In this document: one piece after another, positions 30,928 through 47,894 of the stretch
How the letters are laid out: each line of letters begins with the position of its first letter
How positions within the stretch are numbered: position 1 is the first letter of the stretch
Source of the DNA: Hyphomicrobium sp. 12-62-95
GTDB taxonomy: Bacteria; Pseudomonadota; Alphaproteobacteria; Rhizobiales; Hyphomicrobiaceae
Assembly: GCA_002279935.1 (NCBI GenBank)
Contig: NCCZ01000004.1
Coordinates: 62,001 to 126,000, forward strand
Length of the DNA stretch: 64,000 nucleotides
Direction: 5' to 3'
Translations under genes and position numbers: made by a program
Notes under the pieces: generated by a model
Told to the model about the DNA's origin: nothing
The model's input: the letters and a program-made list of their open reading frames with translations, nothing else
The model's database searches: none

Positions 30928-31023
30928 CGAACTCGTTTCTGCCACACGCAGCGATAGAGTTAGAGTGAACTAAACCATTTCGTTCCGCGTCGTGTTCCGG
31001 CGCGAGCGAGCGCACTAAAAACC

Positions 31024-31136
31024 CCCTCTCCCCATCGCCTCCGATGGGGAGAGGGTTGGGGTGAGGGGCAGCTGCTTGTTCCATGCGGATGCTGCCCCTC
31101 ACCCTAGCCCTCTCCCCGTGAAGAACGGGGAGAGGG
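31024..31136. repeat. Nested palindromic repeat cluster (REP-like)
   Basis: Two outer hairpins with GGGGAGAGGG-type arms (CCCTCTCCCCAT/ATGGGGAGAGGG at 31024-31055; CCCTCTCCCC/GGGGAGAGGG at 31108-31136) flank an imperfect larger inverted repeat. Its arms at 31053-31072 and 31091-31110 contain GGGGTGAGGGGCAGC and GCTGCCCCTCACCC. This is the familiar intergenic palindromic repeat type of Rhizobiales genomes. It lies between the methyltransferase and the IalB-like gene. Confidence 0.85.
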
Positions 31137-31168
31137 GAAAGTCCGACGCTACTTTTGGAATCGAGATC

Positions 31169-31681
31169 ATGCGCCGAACCAACCTCCGCTCCTTCACCAC
31201 CTTCGCGCTGGCAGCCCTGGCCCCGCTCGCGGCTAACGCGCAGGCGACCACCGTCGAAGGCACCTTCGGGGCGTGGAGCCTCTATGAAAACGAAGACGCC
31301 GGATCGAAGCTCTGCTTCGTCGCCGCCACCCCGTCGGAGAAAAAAGCGGCGACCGCCAATCGTGGGCCCTCGCTGCTCTACGTCTCCGCCTGGCCCAAGG
31401 ACGGCATCCGCTCCGAAGTCAGCGTCAAACTCGGCTATCCCGTGAAAACCGATACGACGGTCACCGTCACCATCGGCACTGATACCTTCAGCCTGTTCCC
31501 CAAAGACGAGCGCGCCTTCGTCGCCGACGCGACCCAGGAACTCAAACTCGTCGAAGCGCTGAAAAAAGGCTCCAAAGCCGACGTCACCGCCACATCCGCC
31601 CGCGGCACCGAAACCACCGACACCTACACCCTCAGCGGCCTAACCCAAGCGCTCACGGAATTGGGCAAGCAGTGTAAGTGA
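31169..31681 (+). CDS. Invasion-associated locus B (IalB)-like periplasmic protein
   Basis: 170 residues. A Sec signal peptide (FTTFALAALAPLAANAQA) precedes a beta-rich domain: GTFGAWSLYENEDAGSKLCFVAATPSEKK, a run of paired strands (SLLYVSAWPKDGIRSEVSVKLGYPV), and a C-terminal Cys in LGKQCK. This is the IalB pattern, common in Rhizobiales, where most members are exported proteins of unknown role despite the Bartonella-derived name. Confidence 0.75.
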   Translation: MRRTNLRSFTTFALAALAPLAANAQATTVEGTFGAWSLYENEDAGSKLCFVAATPSEKKAATANRGPSLLYVSAWPKDGIRSEVSVKLGYPVKTDTTVTVTIGTDTFSLFPKDERAFVADATQELKLVEALKKGSKADVTATSARGTETTDTYTLSGLTQALTELGKQCK

Positions 31682-31691
31682 GGGAAACTGT

Positions 31692-32645
31692 ATGACAGTT
31701 TGTATCGCAGCGATTTGCAATGCCCACGATGAGACAGGTCCAATCATCGTCACAGCCGCCGACCGAATGATCACCATTGGTGAGATTGAATATGAACCAC
31801 AGCAAACCAAAGCGATAATTTTAGCGTCGCAAACTGTTGCCCTATTGGCGGGTGATATGACGTTTCACGCAGCAGTAGTGCCTCGAGTTGAAGAGCGCAT
31901 TCGAGAGGATTTGCAGGAGCATCCTGACAACATTAATGTTGCCCGTATCTCAGAAATATATGCTGAAGAATTTGCATATCGTCGGCGACGTATGGCCGAG
32001 CAACATATCTTAGTACCACGTGGGTTGGATTTTGACCGTTTCAATTCTCGCCAAAACACCATGGCGCATTATCAAGTAAGTAATATTGATAATGAGCTTC
32101 TCGCTTACAGGACCGATGCAATAGCAATTATTGCAGGATTGGACCCTACCGGCGGCCATATTTTCGTCGTAGAGAATCCTGGAATAAGCCATTCCTACGA
32201 CGTTCCCTCATTTGCCTGCATTGGATCTGGTGAGTATCTTGCCCGCACTCAATTCATGGTCAAAAGATATAGCCGCAGCTGGTCCTTTCCAGATGCCGTA
32301 TGGATAACTTTTGACGCAAAGGCACGGGCGCAGTCAGCCGGTGGTGTCGGCAGAGAAACTGATATGTACATTATCATGCCGGGCGGCAAAATTAATCCGG
32401 CGTCAGATAGTGAAAAGGAAATGCTAAACAAGCTGTTTCGGGAAACTCGCGAACAGGAAGACATTCTTACCAGGACGAACGGACAAAAGATTTCAGAATA
32501 CATTATGGCGACATTATCTAGGTCTGCAGAACAGAACCAAGAACCCAGCTCTCAAACAGAGCCACCTTCAGAAAACGACATCCAATCTCAACTGGTAATA
32601 CAGGAGGCTCAGACTGCAAAGACTCGGAGCAAAAAGAAAAGATAG
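31692..32645 (+). CDS. Proteasome-beta/HslV-like Ntn hydrolase homologue, low GC
   Basis: 317 residues. The first 180 fit the proteasome beta fold. Thr2 would be exposed after Met removal, as in HslV. Asp24 lies in TAADRM (matching the HslV GGDGQ Asp), Lys40 in QQTKAIIL (matching the catalytic Lys), a LLAGD turn follows, and FACIGSGEYLA at about 174-184 matches the family IGSG motif. After residue 230 comes a polar tail rich in Gln/Glu/Ser and ending KTRSKKKR. Base composition is clearly lower in GC than in flanking genes, so it was probably acquired. No HslU, Mpa or other ATPase partner is adjacent. The role is inference. Confidence 0.6.
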   Translation: MTVCIAAICNAHDETGPIIVTAADRMITIGEIEYEPQQTKAIILASQTVALLAGDMTFHAAVVPRVEERIREDLQEHPDNINVARISEIYAEEFAYRRRRMAEQHILVPRGLDFDRFNSRQNTMAHYQVSNIDNELLAYRTDAIAIIAGLDPTGGHIFVVENPGISHSYDVPSFACIGSGEYLARTQFMVKRYSRSWSFPDAVWITFDAKARAQSAGGVGRETDMYIIMPGGKINPASDSEKEMLNKLFRETREQEDILTRTNGQKISEYIMATLSRSAEQNQEPSSQTEPPSENDIQSQLVIQEAQTAKTRSKKKR

Positions 32646-32679
32646 CCAGCCAGACTTTGGTCAGGTCAATTCCGCCCCC

Positions 32680-33297
32680 CTACCCCCGCCTCAAATGCAC
32701 ATAAAGCGCGCCCGAGCCTCCATGCTCCACCGCCGCTTCCGTGAAGCTCACGATCAGCCCGCGCACGTCCGGCTCCGAAAGCCACATCGGCACGTTGCGC
32801 TTCAAGACCCCGCGCGGCACCTCCCCGAACGGACGCTCATGATCGTCGTCCCGCGCGCGTGACGGCAAGCCCTTGCCCGTAATCACGAGCACCCACCGCC
32901 GCCCCATTGCCGCCGAGCCGTGAATGAACCGGATCAGCGCCTCATGCGCCTCCGCCTGCCGCATCCCGTGCAGATCGATCCGCGCGTCGATCTCGATTTT
33001 CCCGCGCTTCAGCTTCTTCATGTTGCGCCGGTCGAACGCATTGAGCTCCGGCGTGGCCTTCTTCGCGGCGGGCTTCGGCGCAGCTGCCGGCGCGTGATCC
33101 TTCTTTCCGTGATGTCCCGCCTTCGTCTTCGGCGCGAACAATTGGGCGAAATCCTCCTCGCCCTCATAGGCGTCGAGCACATACCCCTTCGGATTCTTCA
33201 ACGGCGACAGCGATTGCGCGGTGTGCTCCCACACCTCGTGATCCTCGTCCGTCAGAAGCGTCTTGTTCCCGCCCCCGCGGCCCGGCTTCTTGCTCAC
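32680..33297 (-). CDS. Smr domain protein
   Basis: 205 residues. The C-terminal Smr domain has the IDLHGMRQAEAHEALIRFI motif (LDLHG type) at about 107-126 and the ITGKG motif (TGxG type) near 140. Smr domains are nuclease-like modules found alone or in MutS2. The N-terminal half is basic and Lys/Ala/Pro-rich. It overlaps the mltA stop by 4 bases (ATGA); mltA-smr is a conserved Rhizobiales pair. Confidence 0.88.
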   Translation of the reverse strand: MSKKPGRGGGNKTLLTDEDHEVWEHTAQSLSPLKNPKGYVLDAYEGEEDFAQLFAPKTKAGHHGKKDHAPAAAPKPAAKKATPELNAFDRRNMKKLKRGKIEIDARIDLHGMRQAEAHEALIRFIHGSAAMGRRWVLVITGKGLPSRARDDDHERPFGEVPRGVLKRNVPMWLSEPDVRGLIVSFTEAAVEHGGSGALYVHLRRG

Positions 33298-47324: not shown

Positions 47325-47894
47325 ATGAGCAACATAACCAAGGCAATTTGTGAATCCCTGACCGTTGTCGAACTACTTCGGCGAGGATGGCATGTCGTCA
47401 ATCTCAACGCTGTTAATAATACCCCAAACGCTGACCTCATCGCCATTAAAGCATCAAGTCGAATTACTCTACAGGTCAAGGGCACCGATGGTCGTGCAGG
47501 TCAGCCGTTTCCGCATACGGTGTCGTTCGCAAGAAGCTGCGAAAAGTTTCTGACCCAACAGACGCCGTTTTTCAATTCCAAGCAGTCACCGGTCCAGGCA
47601 GACTTCTTTGTGGGTGTAACGCAGGCTCCCGGCACCCAATCATTCCTCATCATGCCAATTAGCGCCGCAGAATCGCTGGCGCGAGAGATCGCAAGTTGGT
47701 GGTATCAGGTACCAACTGTCGACGGCAGACTGCGCTCCCCTAACTTTGCGGCCCTTGTCGCCATTAGAGAGGAAGGCATCATCGGTGGGCAGTGGCGATG
47801 TGCACGTGAAGCGCACTTCAGAAAGGCGGCCCCGTATATCGACAATTGGGGCATCCTCGATGACGTACAGACTTCGGCCATCGGTGGCACCTAG
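47325..47894 (+). CDS. PD-(D/E)XK nuclease-like hypothetical protein in the parS-flanked insert
   Basis: 189 residues. The N-terminal part fits a restriction-endonuclease-like fold: Glu16 in VVELLRRGWHVV, Asp37 in PNADLIAIK, and QVK at 50-52 in ITLQVKG, the spacing and hydrophobic pattern expected for a PD-(D/E)XK active site with Gln in place of Glu. The second half has no recognised motif. Lower GC and different codon choice than mnmE and mnmG, so probably acquired. The function is inference; a nucleic-acid-processing or defence role is one possibility. Confidence 0.55.
   Translation: MSNITKAICESLTVVELLRRGWHVVNLNAVNNTPNADLIAIKASSRITLQVKGTDGRAGQPFPHTVSFARSCEKFLTQQTPFFNSKQSPVQADFFVGVTQAPGTQSFLIMPISAAESLAREIASWWYQVPTVDGRLRSPNFAALVAIREEGIIGGQWRCAREAHFRKAAPYIDNWGILDDVQTSAIGGT

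Follow-up and report, generated by a model that had tools for sequence, protein, structure and literature searches.

Proteasome-like threonine hydrolases as cargo of small transposons, and a probable stranded copy in Hyphomicrobium

In this work, we have shown that eight relatives of a proteasome-like hydrolase from Hyphomicrobium sp. 12-62-95 are carried as cargo by small transposons and that a proteasome-family enzyme can thus be a mobile gene. The Hyphomicrobium gene lies in a 64,000-nucleotide stretch of DNA, the whole of which was analyzed and is referred to here as the window; as read from its sequence, the product is a proteasome-like N-terminal-threonine hydrolase with an intact active site, most likely of the PHI type. 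On balance, we favor the interpretation that the PHI-like hydrolase is single-gene transposon cargo and that the window copy is cargo left stranded, which would have arrived by transposon. The features of the locus, in window coordinates, are as follows.

31061 to 31681, forward strand: IalB-like gene, left flank of the insertion (PF06776, E = 3.3e-7; start uncertain)
31680 to 31685, forward strand: putative ribosome-binding site GAGGGA, read from the sequence, 6 bases 5' of the ATG and sharing bases with the stop codon of the preceding gene
31682 to 32677, no strand: inserted stretch that congeners G001 and G400 lack between the same two genes; boundaries approximate
31692 to 32645, forward strand: proteasome-like Ntn hydrolase ORF, 317 amino acids, intact and uninterrupted
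32654 to 32677, reverse strand: stretch that may be left over from the right terminal repeat of an IS1595-type element (GGGCGGAATTGACCTGACCAAAGT when read inward); suggestive only
32680 to 33297, reverse strand: Smr-domain-like gene, convergent, right flank of the insertion (ORF; family assigned by eye)

The first-pass annotation had described this gene as a low-GC ORF of foreign composition encoding a proteasome-beta/HslV-like Ntn hydrolase, and both the composition and the fold bear this out. The GC content of the ORF is 46.5% and its GC3 is 43%, compared to mostly 60 to 66% GC across the window. The protein matches the Pfam Proteasome family (PF00227; E = 3.7e-7, 30.4 bits, cut-off 22.4); in the NCBIfam search, the proteasome models scored far below their cut-offs, and there was no HslV equivalog among the matches. 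Structure prediction, which had been suggested as a check together with the HMM search, yielded a single-chain AlphaFold2 model (17 sequences; pLDDT, 89.4; pTM, 0.79) with the Ntn alpha-beta-beta-alpha sandwich. The 50 best Foldseek matches were all proteasome chains, and VIA-align superimposed the model on the beta subunit of Thermoplasma acidophilum with a Z score of 24.5 and an rmsd of 2.1 over 200 residues, placing model residue 2 on Thr1 of that chain; no HslV or Anbu chains were among the 50 matches listed by VIA-align, an absence that carries no weight. Elsewhere in the window, positions 47325 to 47894 hold another isolated low-GC (54%) ORF of 189 amino acids, which perhaps was acquired too.

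Thr2, Asp24, and Lys40, which had been recognized early as likely catalytic features, were invariant in an alignment of 19 relatives. The conservation of Thr2 was partly selected, because the pattern used to search for relatives included an M-T-[VI]-C-I-A start; Asp24 and Lys40 lie outside that pattern, and three relatives found without the start pattern carry a threonine directly after the start codon (TTG, GTG, and ATG, respectively). Two other features from the first-pass annotation survive only in part: the IGSG motif is present in the window protein, but only its two glycines (G178 and G180) are invariant, and the charged C-terminal tail does end in KKKR but varies in length and sequence in every relative aligned, so this ending is no family signature. 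Upon removal of the start methionine, Thr2 would be exposed as a nucleophile, activated by Lys40 and Asp24, leading to the cleavage of peptide bonds. Such residues do not prove peptidase activity, since connectase has the same fold yet is a ligase (PMC8665760); the window copy is probably an active peptidase. As first noted, no unfoldase gene is adjacent to the hydrolase gene, whose neighbors are the IalB-like and Smr-like genes. Because of this, and because the helical insertion described below may hinder ring closure, cleavage would probably be ATP-free, and we infer that the enzyme acts on loosely folded or specific cytosolic proteins.

Fuchs, Alva, and Lupas described 22 new proteasome homologues in 2021 and did not find gene context that suggested function (PMC8665760). 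In that study, PHI is characterized by a long helical insertion after H1/H2, which was argued to be a possible hindrance to ring closure; for some members, a coiled coil is predicted at the C terminus. PHI is spread thinly over bacteria and archaea, with 53 sequences at 90% identity and 52 at 70% (PMC8665760). The window protein resembles PHI in its proteasome-beta fold, in a helical insertion at about residues 111 to 140 (extra helices 114 to 120 and 126 to 138, after H2 at 83 to 110), in a long C-terminal helix (239 to 281, followed by a weakly predicted tail), and in the sparse bacterial and archaeal spread of its relatives. The PHI type is therefore the most likely assignment, made from published architecture and phyletic spread, and the earlier proposal of a new branch is unsupported as stated, since both properties match the PHI description (PMC8665760). 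PMI-2 to PMI-6 had been considered first and were ruled out: the H3/H4 insertion is absent, and H3 (181 to 190) is joined to H4 (199 to 213) by only 8 residues. Most of the homologues reported in 2021 have no known function or context; unlike PHI in that study, the relatives of the window protein are transposon cargo, and packaging with a transposase gives one group a context.

The gene neighbors of the homologues, another check proposed at the outset, include transposases beside many relatives, eight of them in elements with mapped ends. In five copies, the hydrolase gene is adjacent to and convergent with a gene for an IS1595-family transposase; the same layout is seen in an acidobacterial genome for a sixth hydrolase, which is more divergent. 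All six gene pairs lie between terminal repeats that match at 16 to 20 of 22 positions and are flanked by exact 8-bp target duplications, in elements of 2.1 to 2.4 kb. Two IS6-like elements likewise enclose a hydrolase and a transposase, and the cargo status of all eight relatives is thereby established.

G158a, IS1595 element: 8-bp target duplication GATATTTT
G158b, IS1595 element in the same genome as G158a: 8-bp target duplication AATTTGAT
G090, IS1595 element: 8-bp target duplication GTTGCCGC
L045, IS1595 element: 8-bp target duplication CGAGGGCG
L046, IS1595 element: 8-bp target duplication CTATTTTA
L064, IS1595 element: 8-bp target duplication ACAAGGAG
L048, IS6-like element on a viral contig, hydrolase and transposase enclosed: duplication GCGTGTGG, repeats 18/22
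L041, IS6-like element on a Woesearchaeota contig, hydrolase and transposase enclosed: duplication GTATATCG, repeats 18/22

None of 1500 random placements had repeats of 16/22 together with an 8-bp duplication. The IS1595-type elements were found in Alphaproteobacteria and Acidobacteria and the IS6-like elements on the Woesearchaeota contig and the viral contig. IS1-type transposases adjoin the hydrolase genes at L038, L044, L049, and L052, and an IS5-type transposase adjoins that at L040; carriage by transposons is likely at these five loci, although element ends were not found there or at the stand-alone loci. No linked transposase was seen at L035, L036, L037, L039, L042, L043, or the window locus. 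We propose that the family moves as single-gene cargo of small DDE transposons, of the IS1595 type, the IS6-like type, and probably the IS1 type. IS elements of the IS1595 and IS6 families that carry passengers, termed tIS, have been described (PMC5704250, PMC7986276), and the hydrolase elements are organized like them, with transposase and passenger between terminal repeats and 8-bp target duplications. In the literature examined, mostly open access, there was no described tIS with a proteasome-like passenger, nor one in which such a hydrolase had been swapped for another.

The distribution of the relatives is that of a mobile gene, since they are scattered in single records from Saccharibacteria, Thorarchaeota, Pirellula, Deltaproteobacteria, Cloacimonadota, Thermoplasmata, Woesearchaeota, Euryarchaeota, Eremiobacterota, Hyphomicrobiales, and Acidobacteriaceae and also on viral contigs, at identities of about 19 to 33%. 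Among 396 other genomes of the order, a single-protein search recovered relatives in only 2, and a four-row alignment search of 385 genomes of the class and 398 of the phylum returned nothing beyond the window copy. The first scans of genomes and viral contigs with the single window protein gave no match, nor did searches with this protein against plasmids and phages or with the proteins of two relatives against plasmids. Transposon carriage would explain the odd composition of the gene, its isolation, and its patchy spread from Woesearchaeota to Alphaproteobacteria.

The window copy itself occupies a site that accepts inserts. The hydrolase ORF begins 10 bp past the IalB-like gene; in congeners G001 and G400, the IalB and Smr flanks are nearly contiguous, with about 7 to 13 bp between them, whereas the gap is occupied in G398 by a HigBA-like toxin-antitoxin pair (L028; HigB named by eye) and in G397 by an unrelated 183-residue ORF with no Pfam match (L027). 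The window genome has therefore gained approximately 1 kb at this position, and the IalB-Smr gap is a minor hotspot for insertions. An intergenic repeat of about 118 bp, GC-rich and palindromic, is located at 31020 to 31138, immediately 5' of the IalB-like gene; this genome and its congeners contain dozens of copies of it.

It can be envisioned that the cargo landed downstream of the IalB-like gene with its transposase and left end lacking or subsequently lost. We consider stranded IS1595 cargo the likeliest origin because the right edge of the insert resembles the L046 and L064 repeats and because of the place of the protein in the tree beside IS1595 cargo. With a matrix built from the L046 and L064 repeats, this edge ranked 3rd of 127,952 positions; the matrix built from the repeats of all elements did not single it out. 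In the tree, the window protein has three sisters, a Pirellula protein and two proteins carried by IS1595 elements (support, 98/95). There is, however, no adjacent IS1595 transposase near the gene, and the insert has no left repeat, no terminal-repeat pair, and no 8-bp target duplication. It is somewhat less likely that the window copy arrived by another route, such as illegitimate or homologous recombination into the hotspot, a phage, or a plasmid, and was never part of an IS1595 element, carriage being a property of other branches. This would agree with the missing repeat pair and duplication, with the other occupants of the gap in G397 and G398, and with the sister Pirellula locus, which has no transposase; against it, IS1595 elements carry two of these three sisters, and the right edge is similar to the L046 and L064 repeats.

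The IS1595 elements also indicate how this cargo is exchanged. G158, from the same order as the window genome, carries two copies of one IS1595 element, whose DNA is 96% identical over 1159 bp on the right and 87% identical over 61 bp on the left. The hydrolases between these ends are only 23% identical as proteins and fall in different supported clades; given the near-identical backbones, one hydrolase has taken another's place, and the cargo slot is exchangeable. At 30 other IS1595 loci across the order, no such hydrolase was present in the flank examined, which was usually about 1.5 kb, so the association of this transposase subgroup with the hydrolase is not obligatory. Eight of the 30 have mapped ends; these are elements of 2.1 to 2.5 kb that devote 1.0 to 1.5 kb beside the transposase to other single genes; one of these encodes a DUF3800 protein and another a trypsin-like peptidase, and several specify small, unassigned products bearing an RxxxxH motif. 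The elements with the hydrolase can therefore be compared with siblings carrying other cargo, providing a handle on function. The loci L068, L071, L072, L077, L079, L083, L084, and L088 illustrate that IS1595-family elements commonly have one variable cargo gene, and a small lysine/proline-rich ORF is often found near the transposase in elements of the same order.

We tentatively suggest that proteasome-like threonine hydrolases may be recurrent, exchangeable cargo that small bacterial and archaeal transposons retain for a benefit to the element or the host, be it defense, addiction, or transposition control, and that this mobility may underlie their scattered distribution. Among the specific roles, a defense or addiction function, in which a protease effector protects the host or penalizes loss of the element, is on present evidence unlikely. 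The cargo of the sibling elements and the presence of some relatives on viral contigs are in keeping with it, but there was no PADLOC or PHROG match among the members tested, and the likeness of the other cargo to defense genes was judged by eye, except for DUF3800 and Trypsin_2. We regard it as quite improbable that the hydrolase serves the element itself, cleaving the transposase or some host factor and thereby adjusting transposition. In favor of this role are the constant convergent arrangement of hydrolase and IS1595 transposase and the exchange of hydrolases within a single slot; against it, the majority of IS1595 relatives have a different cargo or lack this kind, and several of the hydrolase genes occur on their own.

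The comparison with the classical proteasome-like proteins sets the window protein apart. Like a 20S proteasome beta subunit, it has Thr, Asp, and Lys at matching places in a common fold (Z score, 24.5); in contrast to that subunit, it lacks a propeptide (the start methionine is followed directly by the threonine), has extra helices, and shares only 14 to 21% identity, and genes for an alpha subunit and an unfoldase are absent nearby. HslV and Anbu belong to the same superfamily but show no family-level match, have a different context, and lie far apart from it in the tree. The same genome encodes HslV beside HslU and an Anbu-like protein, both elsewhere, which makes the window protein its third proteasome-like protein; this Anbu-like protein, the only Anbu sequence used in the tree, branched apart from the window-protein family. 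That the window protein is a divergent HslV, Anbu, or proteasome beta subunit in its usual role is therefore extremely unlikely despite the common fold, given the NCBIfam equivalog scores far under the cut-off and the separate, distantly branching HslV (with HslU) and Anbu-like genes.

The Anbu-like gene (L002) adjoins transglutaminase-like and alpha-E-like ORFs, both named by eye. Among the candidate family members that were rejected, L055 is an HslV gene beside HslU, and L059, L060, L061, and L062 hold a different, shorter Ntn-type protein, starting with MTVVLATV; within the order, it occurs in four genomes, of which three belong to a single family.
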